Source: Lactiplantibacillus plajomi (GTDB lineage: Bacteria; Bacillota; Bacilli; Lactobacillales; Lactobacillaceae). Taken from it: a DNA stretch of 64,000 nt. The stretch covers positions 1-64,000 of the forward strand of contig NZ_BJDZ01000006.1 of the NCBI RefSeq assembly GCF_005405405.1, read 5' to 3'. Positions within the stretch are counted from its first letter, which is position 1. Each line of letters opens with the position of its first letter. Positions 2,783 through 53,469 of the stretch are shown piece by piece. The translations under genes and the position numbers were made by a program. A model generated the notes under the pieces. That model was not told the DNA's origin, did no database searches, and saw nothing but the letters and a program-made list of their open reading frames with translations.

Positions 2783-3346
2783 ATGACGGCACCAAATATG
2801 AGTAAACACTTAACACAAACTGCAATGGTCACGGCCTTAATTATTGTTTTAGGCTTTTTTCCCGGGATTCCGGTTGGTATTATTCCGGTTCCAATCATTA
2901 TTCAGAATATGGGCATCTTTTTAGCGGCAGAACTGCTCGGACGTAAGTACGGGACGGTCGCAGTCGGCCTCTTTTTGGCGCTCGCCGCCTTGGGGGTACC
3001 GGTATTAGCTGGCGGACGTGGCGGTCTGGCAACCTTCGTCGGGCCGACCGGGGGTTACCTGGTTGGGTACTTATTGGCACCAGTTGTGATTGGCACCCTA
3101 TTAAATGCGACCCACGCCCGTTCAAGTGCGAATTGGTGGCGGGAATGGTTGATCGTGACCATCGGCGGGATTGCCTTTATCGATACGGTTGGGGCGGTTT
3201 GGCTCGCACTTCAATCGAACTTAGCGTTGCCAGCGGCGCTGTTGTCCAACTTAGCGTTTATTCCGGGTGACGTTCTTAAAGCGAGCCTTGCGGTGGTGAT
3301 TGCACGGCGCGTCCGGGCAATTATTGACTTTGGTGTTCCGGTTTAG
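2783..3346 (+). CDS. bioY: Biotin transporter BioY (ECF S-component)
   Basis: Integral membrane substrate-binding subunit of an energy-coupling-factor transporter that captures biotin; it normally works with the shared EcfA/A'/T module, which is not in this window. Hydrophobic segments run through most of its 187 residues, and the family hallmark GGRGGLATFVGPTGGY is at residues 77-92. GGGGGC-type ribosome site lies before ATG 2783. It forms an operon with birA, 11 bases downstream, behind a putative biotin-responsive operator. Confidence 0.95.
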   Translation: MTAPNMSKHLTQTAMVTALIIVLGFFPGIPVGIIPVPIIIQNMGIFLAAELLGRKYGTVAVGLFLALAALGVPVLAGGRGGLATFVGPTGGYLVGYLLAPVVIGTLLNATHARSSANWWREWLIVTIGGIAFIDTVGAVWLALQSNLALPAALLSNLAFIPGDVLKASLAVVIARRVRAIIDFGVPV

Positions 3347-3357
3347 GGGGTAATGGT

Positions 3358-4332
3358 TTGAATTCAACACAAGCACAATTACTAACGGCTTTTTTAGCGG
3401 ATGAACGGGCGTGGCATTCTGGTGATCAGTTAGCTGGTCAGATCGGGGTTAGTCGCGAAAGTGTCTGGAAAGCAATTAACGGCTTGCGCAAGCGCGGGTA
3501 TCAAATCGAGAGTCGTAAAAACCGCGGTTACCGGTATCAGGGGAGTACGGCCCTAGATGAACTAGCGATTCGGCTAATGGCTGGCTCCCGATTTTCCGGA
3601 CCGATTACCGTTGAGCAAACGGTGGCGTCGACCCAGGAGTTGGCGAAACGGGCGGTCAGCCAAACGAATCCACCACAGCTGGCAGCCTTTTTTGCTGATG
3701 AGCAAACGGCCGGTTACGGTCGGCTGGGCCGGTCATTCTATTCACCAGCCCAAACCGGGCTCTATTTTAGTTTGATTTTGCCGAACCCGACTAACGACCT
3801 AACGAAGGTCGGGTTACTGACGACCAGCGTGGCGGTTAGCGTGTTACGGGTGCTCCAGGCGACCTTTCCGGCGCAGCCGTTTGGACTAAAGTGGGTCAAC
3901 GACCTGTATCTCAATCAGCGTAAGGTTGGTGGTATTATTACCGAGGCCAGCTTAGAATTGGAATCAACGTCGGCGGCCGCCTTCATTGTGGGGATTGGCT
4001 TGAACCTGACGACGGCCGATTTTCCGGCACCGTTAAGCTCACTAGCGGGCGGAATCGCCCCCGGCACAACGGTTGACCGTAACCGCTTGGCCGCCACCCT
4101 AATTGCCGCCATTAGTCAGGATTACCAAGCTTATCCTACGACGGCCTGGTTGCCGTTCTACCGGACTCATTCGTTGATTTTGGGGAAACCGGTGACGGTG
4201 CGGGTTGCTGGTCAGAACATCAGTGGTTGTGCGGAGACCATCGACGAAAACGGCGCCCTAGTGGTGGCGTTACCGTCGGGCGAACGCCGGCACCTGATGA
4301 GCGGTGAAGTAACCCGGGTCGTGATGGACTAA
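3358..4332 (+). CDS. birA: Bifunctional biotin-[acetyl-CoA carboxylase] ligase and biotin operon repressor
   Basis: Attaches biotin to carrier lysines through biotinyl-AMP and represses bio genes when no acceptor is available. The N-terminal winged helix-turn-helix is at residues 1-60 (GVSRESVWKAINGLRKRGY); the catalytic domain has the biotinoyl-AMP loop GYGRLGR (119-125), KWVNDLY (178-184) and KVGGIITE (189-196), and a C-terminal SH3-like domain. The start is TTG 3358, preceded by AGGGGG. The window also encodes a true acceptor (OadD) and a lookalike lacking the acceptor lysine (15810-16343). Confidence 0.95.
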   Translation: MNSTQAQLLTAFLADERAWHSGDQLAGQIGVSRESVWKAINGLRKRGYQIESRKNRGYRYQGSTALDELAIRLMAGSRFSGPITVEQTVASTQELAKRAVSQTNPPQLAAFFADEQTAGYGRLGRSFYSPAQTGLYFSLILPNPTNDLTKVGLLTTSVAVSVLRVLQATFPAQPFGLKWVNDLYLNQRKVGGIITEASLELESTSAAAFIVGIGLNLTTADFPAPLSSLAGGIAPGTTVDRNRLAATLIAAISQDYQAYPTTAWLPFYRTHSLILGKPVTVRVAGQNISGCAETIDENGALVVALPSGERRHLMSGEVTRVVMD

Positions 4333-13467: not shown

Positions 13468-14658
13468 TTATAACGCTAATAAGCGCCGGCGTAGTGCTGG
13501 GTCAACCGCGTAAAGGTATAGACCGTAGCGGCCCCGCTTCATTAAAACGTTGACGGAATTCAAGATGATTTGTTGTTTGAGTGGGGTTAAATTCCCAAGG
13601 TCGGTGCGTTGTTTGAAAGCTTCCTGATCTTCATAGGCCGCCGGGTTAGCAACGACGCGGTCGTGTACCGGGTCGTAACCGATGGATGGACCTAAGATCA
13701 CCCCGGCGTAGTTGAGGTCGAAACCCTGAATCGTGTAAATTGAGCCAACTTCGTTGAGGGTCTCCGGCCGCAGCGCCCACGGGTCGGCGGTCAGGTTGAC
13801 TTTATCCCACGGCAGTTTTAAGCTGCCGGCGGTCACGTACCAGGTGCCGTGATTAACGACGTACGGAAAGTCGGCGGTTGCCACCATCCGTGCCAGCCCG
13901 CCCCGTTGGTCACGTTGACGGATACGGTCGTACAACGGTTGGCCGTCCGCAAAGATTTGTAAGTCGAATTGCGGGTCGTGCGGTAACGGCCGGAGGTGTC
14001 CACGGGTAAAAGCGTTGATCCAATCAACAACGCTTTGATTACCGCTGACCCGAAACTGTTCGTCGAGGTTGAAACTGGCGTGCGGGTAACGGTTCAAAAA
14101 CGGGGTCAGGCCGTCGCTAGCCCAGTAGCTTTTTAATTTTAAGACTTGGCGCGGGTCGAACACCAAGACGACCACCCGACTATGATCAATGATGGCTTGT
14201 AACTGGTTCTGGCCGGTAAAGCGATTATAGCGGTCGGGTTGTGTGAGCAATAGGTGGGCCTCGTCGATGAAGACGACGTCGGCGCGTTGCTGGGTTTTCG
14301 CCAAGCGGTTGATCAACGGGGTTGGCTTCTGAAAGTCCTTTTTTCGAAGAACCGGGTCGGCGCCGGCCAACTGTTTATAAATCTTGAGCATTTCGTTATG
14401 GTTCACGACGAGGTAGTTTTGTTGGGTACCCCGGGCCGAGTGCTGGCGATTTTCCGCCTGTAAGCGGTGAAAGGCGGCTTCCAATACCGCACTCTTGCCG
14501 CTACCGGCATCACCGTGGATGACGAATAATCCGGTCTGCGGCTGGTCAATCTGATTGTCGATGAAGTTAAAGAGCTGTTTTTCCAAACGTTGTTGCGCGG
14601 GGGAAAGGGCGTCCTTTTCCCCGAGTCTAAAGGTTGCGTGATCAATTGTGGGTTGCAT
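13468..14658 (-). CDS. DUF2075 P-loop ATPase (helicase-like)
   Basis: Walker A GDAGSGKS at residues 49-56 and Walker B VVFIDEAH at 128-135 identify a superfamily-1-like P-loop protein; the C-terminal part (SIYTIQGFDLNYAGVILGP near 305-323 and NVLMKRGRYGLYLY near 372-385) is the DUF2075 signature that mimics helicase motifs V/VI. Many relatives carry an N-terminal GIY-YIG nuclease; this 396-residue copy does not. Function is unproven; DNA repair or a defence-related role are both possible. GGAGG precedes ATG 14658. Confidence 0.85.
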   Translation of the reverse strand: MQPTIDHATFRLGEKDALSPAQQRLEKQLFNFIDNQIDQPQTGLFVIHGDAGSGKSAVLEAAFHRLQAENRQHSARGTQQNYLVVNHNEMLKIYKQLAGADPVLRKKDFQKPTPLINRLAKTQQRADVVFIDEAHLLLTQPDRYNRFTGQNQLQAIIDHSRVVVLVFDPRQVLKLKSYWASDGLTPFLNRYPHASFNLDEQFRVSGNQSVVDWINAFTRGHLRPLPHDPQFDLQIFADGQPLYDRIRQRDQRGGLARMVATADFPYVVNHGTWYVTAGSLKLPWDKVNLTADPWALRPETLNEVGSIYTIQGFDLNYAGVILGPSIGYDPVHDRVVANPAAYEDQEAFKQRTDLGNLTPLKQQIILNSVNVLMKRGRYGLYLYAVDPALRRRLLAL

Positions 14659-14764
14659 CTAAATCCCTCCGAGCGTCATTATAACGAAAGTTCCCCGTAA
14701 TTGAAATGAGAATGGTTACAGTTGGTGGTAAAATAAGGGTACTTGAATGGTGGGAGGTCTTAGA

Positions 14765-15229
14765 ATGAAACTTGATTTTTCGGTCGCGGTGCACAGTCTG
14801 CTTTATTTAGACGCCCATCGACCTAATAAGGTGGCCAGTCGTGAGTTGGCGCAGTCGTTACACCTGAACCCGGTCATGATTCGCAATATTTTATCGGTCT
14901 TACATAAGCAGGGTTACTTGATCGGGACGGTCGGTAAAAACGGGGGTTATCAATTGGAAAAACTGCTGGGAGATATTAACCTGGGCGACCTGTACGATTT
15001 AACGATTCCACCGTCGCTAAGTTACGCACGGTTCATCACCGGGCCGTCGAAAAATGACGAACAGGTGAATAAGTCGGCAATCGCCGCTAACATCAGTGAA
15101 ACGTTAACCGACCTCTTCACGGTTGCGGACCGCCAGTACCGAGCTTATTACCACCGCTACACAATGGCGGACTTGAAGGAGGACTTGCACCATCACGGCA
15201 CGTTTTTAGCGAAAGAGGCCGGTTTATAA
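14765..15229 (+). CDS. Rrf2-family transcriptional regulator without Fe-S cysteines
   Basis: The winged helix domain (VAVHSLLYLDAHRPNKVASRELAQ, then NPVMIRNILSVLHKQGYL and GKNGGYQL) is that of Rrf2 proteins. The cysteines that hold an Fe-S cluster in IscR/NsrR are absent; the protein has no Cys at all, so it probably senses something else. ATG 14765 follows GGGAGG and is preferred to an in-frame ATG at 14747. Divergent from the DUF2075 gene, a candidate target. Confidence 0.85.
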   Translation: MKLDFSVAVHSLLYLDAHRPNKVASRELAQSLHLNPVMIRNILSVLHKQGYLIGTVGKNGGYQLEKLLGDINLGDLYDLTIPPSLSYARFITGPSKNDEQVNKSAIAANISETLTDLFTVADRQYRAYYHRYTMADLKEDLHHHGTFLAKEAGL

Positions 15230-15385
15230 TCTTAATAAAAACACCGGACTTATTTGGAAAGTAAGTCACCAACGATTAATAACCTTAATTTAAAACGGGT
15301 TGTGCGATTTGCATTGTCAAGTGACGGCATCGATGCTATCTTGAGACCATGGTTGAAGTTGATAGTAGTGAAAGGGGCCGGGGCC

Positions 15386-15706
15386 ATGCAACCACGATTA
15401 GTATGTGTTCACGAAGAAGGACGTTACCGCGAATTATCCGATCAACGGTACTGGGTCGAGTCTGCCGATTTTTGGGGCGTTGATGGGCGCGGCGATACCG
15501 TTAACGAAGCCATTGGTAATTTTTTGACCAACCTCGTTCAGTATTGCCACGATTATTATCAACGGGACCTGTGGCAGCTAGATAACCGGTTACTGCAGTT
15601 GGACCACGTCGACGCGGTCCTGGCTTATGCCAAGGCAGGTAAGTCACCGGCACCGTTATTTTTGTTCAAGGTGTTACCGGCCAACGGGGCCTTGGCGTCG
15701 GCTTAG
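15386..15706 (+). CDS. HicB-like small protein (106 aa), function unknown
   Basis: The frame is open from 15254 but AAGGGG just ahead of ATG 15386 sets the start. The segment WVESADFWGVDGRGDTVNEAIGN (residues 22-44) resembles the partial RNase-H-like fold of HicB antitoxins (target strand, G-D-T-xx-EA helix), but there is no HicA toxin next to it and no DNA-binding domain. It may be a stand-alone member of that fold. This is a weak similarity judged by eye. Confidence 0.6.
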   Translation: MQPRLVCVHEEGRYRELSDQRYWVESADFWGVDGRGDTVNEAIGNFLTNLVQYCHDYYQRDLWQLDNRLLQLDHVDAVLAYAKAGKSPAPLFLFKVLPANGALASA

Positions 15707-15809
15707 GGTAAAATTAAACGGATTCTTAAACAAGCATTCATACTTCCACCATAATCCCGCGGTAAACTATGCGTTATAATCGATGCGTAAATTATTGGAG
15801 GGTCGACTG

Positions 15810-16343
15810 ATGGAATTAGAAAAAATATACCAGTTAATGGATAAGTTTGAACAGGGTCAGCTAACGAGTTTTAGTTATCACGACCAGGAATTTGAAATTA
15901 AGATGACTAAGAATGCTGACGGTCAGGTGGAAACTACGCCGGCGACACCGAAAGCACAGCCACAACCACGGCCGTTACCGGCCGAACCAGCACCGAGTGA
16001 AGCGCCGGTTACACCGACACCGGTCAGTGCCAGTGCGCCGAGTCAACCGGCAGCTCCGGCACCGAAACCAGCCGTAACGGTTGATCCAAAGCAGTGCGTC
16101 ACGGCCCCGGTCGTAGGGATTTATTACCAGGCCCATTCTTCCGAGGAAGCGCCGTACGTTCAAGTTGGCGACCACGTTAGCGTCGGTCAGCAGGTTGGCT
16201 TGATTCAAGCCATGCAAATGATGCGACCGGTCGTGGCTAAGCAGGCTGGCCAGGTTAAGGCCCTGTTAGTGCATAACGGCGAAGAAGTCAACTTTGGGCA
16301 ACCATTGATTCAATTAATTCCGGATACGCCGGATGACATTTAA
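15810..16343 (+). CDS. AccB-like biotin carrier homologue lacking the biotin-acceptor lysine
   Basis: The architecture is that of acetyl-CoA carboxylase BCCP: N-terminal MELEKIYQLMDKFEQ and FEIKMTK, a Pro/Ala-rich linker (residues 41-90) and a C-terminal biotinyl domain (95-177). The acceptor motif, normally AMKM, reads AMQMM at 134-138: codon 136 is CAA (16215-16217), so Gln replaces the lysine and the protein cannot be biotinylated there. It is a lone gene, not in an acc operon. ATG 15810 has GGAGGG seven bases ahead. It may be a regulatory or structural paralogue, or a BirA decoy. Confidence 0.85.
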   Translation: MELEKIYQLMDKFEQGQLTSFSYHDQEFEIKMTKNADGQVETTPATPKAQPQPRPLPAEPAPSEAPVTPTPVSASAPSQPAAPAPKPAVTVDPKQCVTAPVVGIYYQAHSSEEAPYVQVGDHVSVGQQVGLIQAMQMMRPVVAKQAGQVKALLVHNGEEVNFGQPLIQLIPDTPDDI

Positions 16344-16362
16344 TTTTTGTGATAATTAAAAA

Positions 16363-16408
16363 CCACTGACTTTGCGACAATTTTGTCCGCAGAGTCAGTG
16401 GCTTTTTT
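16363..16408. terminator. Bidirectional terminator
   Basis: CCACTGAC (16363-16370) pairs with GTCAGTGG (16394-16401), with further pairing inside and CTTTTTT after. Between convergent genes. Confidence 0.8.
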
Positions 16409-16410
16409 AG

Positions 16411-17322
16411 TTAGCCGATTGCAGCGACCGTTTCCAGGAACCATTGGTTGAAGGCCGGTGCGTCGATGTCGACGCAGACCGTCGCGTTGGTTTGACCATC
16501 GTGGTAGGCGCCACGGATGTCGCCGACGGTCTCACCGTTAGCCGGGCCGTCGGTTTGAACGTCGATCCACATTTTTTCGGTGGTAAACGCTTCGGGGTGT
16601 AGTAAGTAGTAGAGCGTATTTACATCGTGCATTGGAATGCCGCCCTGATTGCCATCGTGGTAGTGGCCGAATAATGCCGAGAGCATTTCGCCAGCCCGGC
16701 CCACCGTTGGTAACTTCGCCATGGTAGCCGGTGTGAGCAGGGCCTTCATGGTCACGTCCAGGCCAACCATCGTAATGGGAACACCGGACTGATACATGAT
16801 GGCCGCGGCGTGCGGGTCGGTGAAGACGTTGAATTCCGCGGCACTCGTCATGTTACCCTTACCGAGGGTCCCGCCCATGGCGATAATTTCTTTGATGTGC
16901 GGTAGCACTTCGGGATACGTCTTAAAGAGCAACGCAACGTTCGTGTAAGCCCCAGTTGGGACCAGCGTGATTGGTTCGTCGGCTGCTAGAATATGGTTGC
17001 GTAACGCTTCGACGGCCGTTTGCGGAAGCGGGTCGGCTAAGTCGCTCGGAAAGTCGTAGCCCGGCATACCCGAAACACCGTGAACCCGAACGGCGTCTTC
17101 AAACGGTTTGATCAGCGGTTGTGGTGCACCGGCCGCCACTGGGACGGTGCTATTGAAAAAGCGGGTCAGTTTTAAGGCGTTGAGCGTCGTTTTATCGACG
17201 GTCACGTTACCCGCAACGGTAGTGAGCAGTTGTAAGTCCAGGTCGGGATGGTTCAGCGCAATGGTGATGGCCGCAGCGTCGTCGATTCCCGGGTCGGTAT
17301 CCATAATTATCTTGGTTGACAT
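16411..17322 (-). CDS. Inosine/uridine-preferring nucleoside hydrolase
   Basis: Hydrolyses the N-glycosidic bond of ribonucleosides for base salvage. The calcium-binding motif DTDPGIDDAAAI is at residues 8-19, and VPTGAYTNVA and MGGTLGKGNMTSAAEFNVFTDP carry further active-site residues; the catalytic DVNTLYYLLHPE is near 240. 303 residues is normal. ATG 17322 with GGAGGG ahead is preferred over ATG 17337. Monocistronic, divergent from the SDR gene. Confidence 0.92.
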   Translation of the reverse strand: MSTKIIMDTDPGIDDAAAITIALNHPDLDLQLLTTVAGNVTVDKTTLNALKLTRFFNSTVPVAAGAPQPLIKPFEDAVRVHGVSGMPGYDFPSDLADPLPQTAVEALRNHILAADEPITLVPTGAYTNVALLFKTYPEVLPHIKEIIAMGGTLGKGNMTSAAEFNVFTDPHAAAIMYQSGVPITMVGLDVTMKALLTPATMAKLPTVGRAGEMLSALFGHYHDGNQGGIPMHDVNTLYYLLHPEAFTTEKMWIDVQTDGPANGETVGDIRGAYHDGQTNATVCVDIDAPAFNQWFLETVAAIG

Positions 17323-17455
17323 GGTGATTCCCTCCAATTAATGGCAGTTTTAAGTTACCTTTATTTTAGCATACCTGCCCTTATGAATTCGATTGCATTT
17401 CCGCCATGATTGACGTAGCATGGCATTAAATAAAGAAACGATGGAGGAAACAATT

Positions 17456-18367
17456 ATGAATCAACCACGGGTGATTTTAGTGACCGGTGCGTCGTCCGGA
17501 ATCGGTAAGGCCACGGCTTTAAAGTTACAGGCACAGGGTAACGTCGTGTACGGTGCGGCGCGGCGGGTCGACAAGATGACGGACCTAGCTGCCGCCGGAG
17601 TGCACGTCTTGAAGTTGGACGTGACCGACGAAGCAACCATTGAAGCCGCCGTTAAGACCATTCAGGTTGAACAGGGGCGCCTGGACGTGTTGATCAATAA
17701 TGCCGGTTACGGCTCATACGGTGCGGTCGAAGACGTCCCGCTGGCTGAAGGCGAGTACCAGTTCAAAGTCAACGTGTTTGGTGTCATGCGCTTGACCCAG
17801 CTAGTCTTGCCGATGATGCGCAAGCAACACCGCGGCCGCATCATCAACACTTCGTCAATTGGCGGTAAAATTTATCAGCCGTTAAGTGCTTGGTACATGG
17901 GCACTAAGCACGCCATTGAAGGCATGAGCGATTCGTTACGGATGGAAGTAGCGCCGTTCGGGATTGACGTGATCCTGGTGGAACCCGCTGGTATCAAGAC
18001 CGAGTGGGCCGGCATCGCCGAGCAAAAACTGCTGGACGTTTCCGGTGATACGGCTTACCGGCAGCAGGCGGTCAAGGTCGGGGCGATGTTATCCCTGTTT
18101 GATCAGTTTGCGTCGAATCCGGGCGTGATTGCCAAGCTAATGGCGCGCGCGGTTAACGACGTTAAACCTAAGCCCCGCTACCACGCCGGGGCCGCAGCCG
18201 GGCTATCGCTGACGGCCAGAAAGTGGTTGAGTGACCGCCAGTTCGATTACGCCATGAATAAGGCGATTAACGGTTCCGCTAAACTTGCGCGGGTCATCGG
18301 TCGACCGGATCGGCGCGTCGGTAGTCGCCATTACCAACGCGGGGCGAAGAAACCAGTTAAGGATTAA
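17456..18367 (+). CDS. Short-chain dehydrogenase/reductase
   Basis: Classical SDR: cofactor loop TGASSGIG at residues 10-17, NNAG at 81-84, catalytic Ser (INTSS, 130-134), Tyr147 and Lys151 (WYMGTK). At 303 residues it has a C-terminal extension with basic residues typical of the subgroup annotated simply as oxidoreductase. Arg37/38 after the second strand suggests NADPH. Start ATG 17456 follows GGAGG; an earlier in-frame ATG at 17420 lies before that site. Substrate unknown. Confidence 0.9.
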   Translation: MNQPRVILVTGASSGIGKATALKLQAQGNVVYGAARRVDKMTDLAAAGVHVLKLDVTDEATIEAAVKTIQVEQGRLDVLINNAGYGSYGAVEDVPLAEGEYQFKVNVFGVMRLTQLVLPMMRKQHRGRIINTSSIGGKIYQPLSAWYMGTKHAIEGMSDSLRMEVAPFGIDVILVEPAGIKTEWAGIAEQKLLDVSGDTAYRQQAVKVGAMLSLFDQFASNPGVIAKLMARAVNDVKPKPRYHAGAAAGLSLTARKWLSDRQFDYAMNKAINGSAKLARVIGRPDRRVGSRHYQRGAKKPVKD

Positions 18368-53076: not shown

Positions 53077-53469
53077 ATGTTACGGAAATTTAAAATTACC
53101 ATTGATGGTAAGGAATACCAAGTTGAAATGGAAGAAATCGGGGGAACCCCAGCGCCAGCCCCGGCACCAGCCGTAGCAGCAGCGCCAGCACCCGCTTCTG
53201 AAGCGCCGGCAGCCGCACCACAACCAGCTGCGGCCCCACAACCAACCGGGGACACGGCCAACGCAATGAGCGCCCCAATGCCTGGGACAATCATCAAGAT
53301 TTTGGTGGCACCTGGTGACCAAGTTAAGGAAAACCAACCATTGTTAGTGCTTGAAGCGATGAAGATGGAAAATGAAATCGTGGCTAACAAGGCCGGGACC
53401 GTTAAGGAATTATTCGTCAATAAAAATGACACCGTTAACGCGGGTGACGCGCTAATTACAATTAGCTGA
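53077..53469 (+). CDS. oadD: Biotin carrier subunit of oxaloacetate decarboxylase
   Basis: N-terminal FKITIDGKEYQVEMEEIG, an Ala/Pro linker (residues 24-62) and a biotinyl domain with intact acceptor motif EAMKMEN near residues 93-99. It carries CO2 from OadA, where oxaloacetate is decarboxylated, to membrane OadB. OadA in this cluster has no biotin domain, so this separate subunit is required. It starts two bases after oadH. The intact lysine contrasts with the AccB-like protein at 15810-16343. Confidence 0.92.
   Translation: MLRKFKITIDGKEYQVEMEEIGGTPAPAPAPAVAAAPAPASEAPAAAPQPAAAPQPTGDTANAMSAPMPGTIIKILVAPGDQVKENQPLLVLEAMKMENEIVANKAGTVKELFVNKNDTVNAGDALITIS

Follow-up and report, generated by a model that had tools for sequence, protein, structure and literature searches.

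We found that bacteria of the genus Lactiplantibacillus keep a protein with the fold of a biotin carboxyl carrier protein (BCCP) that carries glutamine in place of the biotinylated lysine. That this conserved, non-biotinylatable BCCP-fold protein, here called pseudo-BCCP, is real is close to certain, and the genus probably maintains this carrier that cannot carry to regulate or assemble a carboxylase. Its gene lies in a 64,000-nucleotide stretch of Lactiplantibacillus plajomi DNA (the window, meaning the whole stretch analysed), where the relevant features are as follows.

14747–15229, forward strand: Rrf2-family regulator (PF02082), syntenic in 20 of 20 other genus genomes
15386–15706, forward strand: upstream orphan of 106 aa, known only from the genus, with a weak PHD_like antitoxin match
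15725–15748, forward strand: operator-like box CTTAA..AA...TTCAYA.TTCCA, genus-conserved in an alignment of 21 upstream regions
15775–15780, forward strand: TATAAT, probable -10 element of the pseudo-BCCP gene's own promoter, in 18 of 21 aligned upstream regions
15797–15802, forward strand: ribosome-binding site GGAGGG, 7 nt before ATG 15810
15810–16343, forward strand: pseudo-BCCP gene (177 aa), from ATG 15810 to a stop ending at 16343; N-domain, residues 1–34; Ala/Pro linker, 35–91; biotinyl-like domain, 92–177
16185–16238, forward strand: hairpin GQQVGLIQAMQMMRPVVA, residues 126–143, amino acids identical across 21 genomes
16206–16208, forward strand: Gln133 codon, where Glu is expected three residues before the biotin lysine
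16215–16217, forward strand: Gln136 codon CAA, the biotin-lysine position, at the beta-hairpin tip in the model
16290–16292, forward strand: Asn161 codon, replacing the Glu of the VE(F/Y) motif
16358–16406, unstranded: likely terminator, an inverted repeat accompanied by A and T runs, its 19-nt arms 89% complementary

The residues around Gln136 read LIQAMQMMRP, and the open reading frame and its codon bear out the preliminary description, which had reported Gln in place of the biotinylated lysine. The Pfam family Biotin_lipoyl matched the protein at 4e-15, and the BCCP family TIGR00531 matched residues 1–168 with 107.4 bits, its cut-off being 115.2. This cut-off was exceeded in five genomes of the genus, by the pseudo-BCCPs of G006, G007, G008 and G014 and by the fab-operon AccB of G020; the remaining true AccBs listed for the genus scored below it, like the window's pseudo-BCCP. 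An AF2 model from 52 aligned rows reached a pLDDT of 77 overall and about 95 in the C-domain (residues 101–170), the N-domain and linker being less certain (block means 41–75), and superseded an earlier model from 17 similar rows with a pLDDT of 53. In the 52-row model Gln136 lies between strands 128–134 and 137–142, and a Foldseek search placed E. coli BCCP at the top (1bdo, 1.0 A; 4hr7, 0.8 A) and Arabidopsis BCCP1 fourth. Together, the Pfam, TIGR00531 and structural matches agree with the earlier statement that fold and linker are kept. The N-domain, Ala/Pro linker, thumb and biotinyl fold are common to pseudo-BCCP and AccB/BCCP (TIGR00531; E. coli 1bdo and 4hr7), whereas pseudo-BCCP lacks the biotin lysine, has two conserved Glu replaced and has no accC, accD or accA alongside.

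An orthologue was present in all 20 other Lactiplantibacillus genomes searched, always with AMQM, and none was found in 376 other Lactobacillaceae genomes searched. Across these 397 genomes, the 21 of the genus scored at least 295 bits; outside it only four reached E 1e-25, with 92–97 bits, and those four carry AMK. A scan of one genome per species (84,980 species) gave 15 loci, of which 13 were Lactiplantibacillus and the other two came from an uncultured Lactobacillus sp. and from a Cyclobacteriaceae carrier with AMKL; the scan used two peptide patterns, which more distant lysine-less carriers would escape. As far as searched, pseudo-BCCP appears restricted to Lactiplantibacillus. The Gln136 codon is CAA in 10 and CAG in 11 of the 21 genomes, the window's included, and since both Gln codons occur, it is the residue and not the base that is conserved. 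The orthologues thus share Gln in 21 of 21 genomes, as the preliminary description had proposed to check. Both of the doubts it raised are removed: a private mutation, with Lys kept in close relatives, by Gln in 20 of 20 other genus genomes, and a sequencing error at 16215 by Gln in all 21 through both CAA and CAG.

The genome itself encodes normal carriers, namely a fab-operon AccB with EAMKL (L038) and AccB1 with ESMKL in a fabH1-accB1C1D1A1 set (L039). The second, normal accB that had been suggested for a search elsewhere in the genome is therefore there, and BioY (2783–3346) and BirA with an HTH domain (3358–4332) are also present. The genome further holds a decarboxylase-type carrier (53077–53469 of the window) and a 1148-aa frame that is a pyruvate carboxylase by size and domains; a pyruvate-carboxylase-sized frame with an AccC match was found in 21 of 21 genomes. 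AccC1 occurs throughout the genus (21 of 21) and is the only free-standing biotin carboxylase that all 21 genomes share at E 1e-60, with fab-operon AccC and FabF found in the same 10 of the 21. FabD matches of at least 193 bits occurred in the 10 FabF genomes, none of them over the family cut-off, and weaker FabD-like matches in five genomes, one of which (G001) is without the fab operon. FabF (E 1e-40) and fab-operon AccC were absent from G001, G002, G004, G006, G008, G009, G010, G011, G013, G016 and G017, which have kept FabH1 and AccB1C1D1A1.

The order FabH1-AccB1-AccC1-AccD1-AccA1 is that of our genome (L039) in the 20 other genus genomes as well. In family naming of this set FabH scored over its cut-off, and AccC, AccD and AccA were the best matches, below theirs; the reaction is likely, not certain, to be that of acetyl-CoA carboxylase. 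Because the AccC1 set is universal in the genus, FabH1-AccB1C1D1A1 would be the target if, in each species, the protein works on a multi-subunit carboxylase. The preliminary description had suggested that the protein might regulate fatty acid synthesis, but its role is not confined there, since 11 of the 21 genomes with pseudo-BCCP are without FabF and fab-operon AccC. Four other genera supplied 13 loci for comparison, chosen by score from 65 other genomes with a match; all 13 hold the FabH1-AccB1C1D1A1 module, and all come from genomes without a match to pseudo-BCCP. The module thus lives without pseudo-BCCP in other genera, so the carboxylase does not need it in general. A mannose-type PTS and a sigma-54-type regulator precede FabH1-AccB1C1D1A1 in our genome (L039:7373–19023), as do PTS genes in the 20 other genus genomes (L126–L145); four loci of another genus (L159–L162) show the PTS association as well.

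Around the pseudo-BCCP gene, no AccC, AccD, AccA or FabH gene was found at E 1e-5 in the flanks of 20 fetched loci (9.5–12.6 kb) with AccB/C/D/A, FabH and other fab proteins of our genome as queries; apart from pseudo-BCCP itself, only FabG-like dehydrogenases and one decarboxylase-type carrier (L044) matched. Upstream, a PEBP gene, a helicase (SLFN-g3) and the Rrf2 regulator are in synteny in 20 of 20 other genomes, and the 106-aa orphan adjoins the gene in 19 of 20; the downstream side is variable. G018 lacks the 106-aa neighbour and has kept pseudo-BCCP. The orphan, which has a conserved core WGVDG, occurred in 20 of 21 genus genomes and in none of 376 others at E 0.001; its match to Pfam PF12910 (E 0.0015) is below the cut-off.

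Acetyl-CoA carboxylase commits carbon to malonyl-CoA, and we know of proteins acting on it by carrier mimicry in plants only. These plant BADC proteins, 25–30% identical to BCCP, have no AMKL motif; they bind both BC and BCCP, and some groups view them as inhibitors, others as assembly 'glue' (PMC11926652). Like pseudo-BCCP, BADC1–3 of Arabidopsis are BCCP-like, have no biotinylation motif and are kept beside true BCCPs; they are non-catalytic subunits that bind BC and BCCP (PMC11926652), a role that pseudo-BCCP may share. Pseudo-BCCP differs from them in being bacterial and found in one genus, in having Gln for the lysine in an otherwise intact hairpin, and in a C-domain that groups with carriers of 5-oxoprolinase (pxp) operons. 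The preliminary description had foreseen a new role for the family, for which plant BADC already set a precedent (PMC11926652); new would be the bacterial case. Titles and abstract openings of the open-licence literature described no bacterial lysine-less BCCP or BADC-like protein, and the part of PMC11077971 that was covered contained no lysine-less carrier.

By this analogy, the reading we prefer, as a serious possibility that stops short of a probability, is a BADC-like action on the FabH1-linked carboxylase, as a brake or in a mixed form. Pseudo-BCCP would be a non-biotinylatable carrier mimic working like plant BADC, using its AccB-like N-domain and frozen hairpin to dock on the biotin carboxylase (or the carboxyltransferase) of AccB1C1D1A1. 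The carrier position would then be occupied without CO2 carriage, which would make the protein a brake, or a partly non-catalytic subunit, on malonyl-CoA formation. We incline towards a brake, since it is hard to see why the hairpin tip of a pure scaffold should be frozen. Against the brake model, none of the 20 other orthologues has an AccC, AccD or AccA gene in its flanks. Three further points weaken it: any core gene of the genus would likewise be present in 21 of 21 genomes; the C-domain groups best with pxp-type carriers, which work with another biotin carboxylase of their own; and the module of other genera lives without an orthologue (13 of 13 loci). If true, a bacterial mimic would provide a simple system, in a tractable food bacterium, for the inhibit-or-assemble question on which the BADC literature disagrees (PMC11926652).

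The thumb could point instead to a pure assembly subunit, whose N-domain and thumb would hold the carboxylase together without inhibition, as in the 'glue' view of BADC. Thumb columns 111–116 are a gap in genus AccB1 (11 of 11 aligned rows), the thumb of pseudo-BCCP is full-length with an invariant His109, and plant BADC perturb the BCCP thumb (PMC11926652). We nevertheless regard this alternative as unlikely: nine of the 13 AccB1 proteins from other genera are thumbless by eye, in genomes without a pseudo-BCCP match, and the frozen hairpin tip is left unexplained. The idea of thumbless AccB1 as an obligate partner is likewise weakened by the occurrence of the module without pseudo-BCCP in those genera.

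The descent of the protein bears on a different alternative. In a tree of C-domains, pseudo-BCCP and the carriers of pxpB-pxpC-accB-accC-pxpA operons fell on a 99/99 branch. This agrees with a full-length tree made before it (91/94) and, in part, with a previous C-domain tree, in which L120 fell outside; those trees included the decarboxylase-type carrier, a very long branch, which the later ones omit. Nine pseudo-BCCPs and seven AccB1 were taken into the trees. In tests on groups chosen after the trees were seen, a pseudo-BCCP sister to the genus fab-operon AccB was marginally rejected (p-AU 0.049), one sister to the fab AccBs L096, L068 and L070 gave 0.019, and neither sisterhood with AccB1 (0.17) nor the pxp carriers as a clade without pseudo-BCCP (0.34) was rejected. 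A p-AU of 0.0017 against a clade of pseudo-BCCP and fab AccB had L096 among the fab rows and is an over-rejection, since L096 groups elsewhere. A firm descent of the C-domain from pxp carriers was dropped on the values of 0.049 without L096 and 0.17 for AccB1 sisterhood; a pxp-type origin appears favoured, not proved. The N-domain scored best with the fab-operon AccBs L068, L070 and L096 and with L032, and these best fab AccBs, which belong to other Lactobacillaceae and G020, scored above the pxp carriers. For a possible mosaic of an AccB-like N-domain and a pxp-type C-domain the 36 N-domain residues offer little evidence. The earlier label of AccB paralogue holds for the N-domain, which resembles that of fab-operon AccB, and less well for the biotinyl-like domain, which groups with pxp carriers at 99/99, the alternatives standing at 0.049 for fab AccB and 0.17 for AccB1. 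The fab-operon AccB of G020 (L096) groups with other Lactobacillaceae and not with its genus-mates, which suggests operon replacement.

The pxp-operon carriers L192 and L193, with which the C-domain of pseudo-BCCP groups, are 48.6% and 51.4% identical to it over residues 96–169; they keep EAMK and sit in their operon, whereas pseudo-BCCP has Gln and no pxpABC linkage. L192 (L. plantarum pLPBLS41_3) and L193 (Limosilactobacillus fermentum) each come from a plasmid-borne 5-oxoprolinase operon that encodes its own biotin carrier as well as a biotin carboxylase, next to a metal transporter gene. Among the matches that led to these plasmids, the three highest lie in records of another genus. Within the genus, PxpA and PxpC were each found in one of 21 genomes, both in G019, where a pxp carrier with EAMK (L120) is also encoded. 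An oxoprolinase as partner of pseudo-BCCP was rejected, PxpA and PxpC being missing from 20 of 21 genus genomes. These findings, together with the 99/99 grouping, would suit a carrier that outlived the loss of its 5-oxoprolinase (PxpABC-AccBC) system and has since taken on an unrelated role, perhaps with the Rrf2 regulator (syntenic in 20 of 20) or the 106-aa orphan (adjacent in 19 of 20). The chance of this appears small, because sisterhood with AccB1 is not rejected and that with fab-operon AccB only marginally, the N-domain is closer in score to fab-type AccB than to pxp carriers, G018 keeps pseudo-BCCP without the 106-aa neighbour, and the gene, with its conserved upstream region and inverted repeat, seems to be transcribed as a separate unit.

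Besides the lysine, other residues were changed. The 52-row alignment comprised 17 pseudo-BCCPs, 11 AccB1, 23 other carriers and one decarboxylase-type carrier; it used 17 of the 21 pseudo-BCCPs, with L043, L055, L057 and L059 dropped as near-copies, and 11 of the 21 AccB1. All 17 pseudo-BCCPs had Gln133, Gln136, Arg139, Asn161, Cys96 and His109. The 35 other rows had Glu133 (35), Lys136 (35), Asn139 (31) and Glu161 (32), with Cys96 or His109 in none; Asn at 161 also occurs in the decarboxylase-type carrier. In E. coli BCCP the residues aligned with Gln133 and Asn161 are the glutamates of its EAMK and VEF motifs, which we take to be E119 and E147. Chapman-Smith and colleagues reportedly found E119 and E147 of E. 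coli BCCP to be needed for recognition by BirA.

These replacements bear on whether pseudo-BCCP might serve as a BirA decoy, whose unmodified binding to the ligase/repressor would tune bioY expression or biotinylation. With its HTH domain, BirA could act as a repressor that responds to carrier load, and the fold of pseudo-BCCP is that of a BirA substrate. However, three positions have changed together in 17 of 17 aligned pseudo-BCCPs (Glu133 to Gln, Lys136 to Gln, Glu161 to Asn), two of them matching the glutamates said to be needed in E. coli, which makes a decoy improbable. With all three replaced, the protein gives the impression of having escaped recognition by BirA, not of being adapted to it, and the competition for BirA raised in the preliminary description is doubtful, as two acidic positions of true carriers are lost besides the lysine. 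Returning to the BADC-like reading, a wider and still more tentative form of it is that pseudo-BCCP is an independent bacterial counterpart of BADC: a carrier domain, probably of a 5-oxoprolinase system, with an AccB-like N-domain and changes at the three positions presumed to be read by biotin ligase, may have become a genus-wide brake or assembly factor of the FabH1-linked carboxylase, even in species without a fab operon.

The selection counts, which take in all 21 genomes, showed strong purifying selection on pseudo-BCCP, with its peak at the hairpin that would hold biotin in a true carrier. In the 210 pairwise comparisons of the 21 genes, median pN was 0.089 and pS 0.741 for the biotinyl-like domain, against 0.000 and 0.583 for the hairpin (residues 126–143). 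For AccB1 of the same genomes the values were 0.179 and 0.724 in the domain and 0.077 and 0.885 in the hairpin, where 14 of 18 residues are invariant; the two hairpins are thus compared at unequal synonymous divergence (pS 0.583 vs 0.885). Of the two proteins, it is thus pseudo-BCCP, not the true carrier AccB1, that has the better conserved domain. The N-domain had a median dN/dS of 0.074, defined for 83 of 210 pairs, and such values are rough, synonymous counts being near saturation. A non-functional protein, whether a decaying duplicate, a private mutation or a sequencing error, can practically be dismissed, given open frames and Gln in 21 of 21 genomes and near-saturated synonymous sites with little amino-acid change.

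The gene has a name in L. plantarum. A table for this species places accB1 in fabH1-accB1C1D1A1, accB2 in the fab operon and accB3 outside both (PMC5698307). The L. plantarum genome G015 had exactly three AccB-like matches at E 1e-5, so that, with accB1 and accB2 placed, accB3 should by elimination be the pseudo-BCCP gene. The covered part of PMC5698307 lists accB3 as a biotin carboxyl carrier, the missing lysine unmentioned there, whereas pseudo-BCCP has Gln136. In L. plantarum WCFS1 with olive oil, accB3 was down together with accD1, accD2, fabD, fabZ and fabI (PMC5313477), and its down-regulation with accD1, accD2 and fabD counts for the BADC-like model. The covered part of PMC6459948 names accB2 only, and the numbering of 'accB_3' in PMC12549387, as far as that source was covered, is not attributable to the pseudo-BCCP gene. 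For annotators, this is a warning against modelling L. plantarum accB3 as a functional biotin carrier.

The start at ATG 15810 was supported over an in-frame ATG 27 nt upstream (15783), which is unlikely given GGAGGG 7 nt before ATG 15810 and TATAAT at 15775–15780. The latter differs in the upstream regions of L051, L052 and L055 and is without a good -35; a consensus scan picked TAAACA-17-CATAAT at 15727–15755 instead, and the probable promoter at 15775–15780 rests on conservation across the genus. In the box at 15725–15748, TTMA-like elements recur at a spacing of about 11 nt, which on visual inspection recalls a response-regulator site. In our genome, at up to three mismatches, it gave nine matches including itself, against 11 for a reversed control, with no second copy standing out and thus no sign of a regulon, and the neighbourhoods of four matches (L088, L089, L092 and L095) had nothing coherent. 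No Rfam match up to E 1 was found within 14000–17500. The inverted repeat at 16358–16406 is shared with a convergent gene at 16411–17337; the consensus scan gave no terminator there, its loop limit being 8 nt and the loop of the repeat 11 nt. The conserved upstream region and this repeat suggest that the pseudo-BCCP gene forms a transcription unit of its own.
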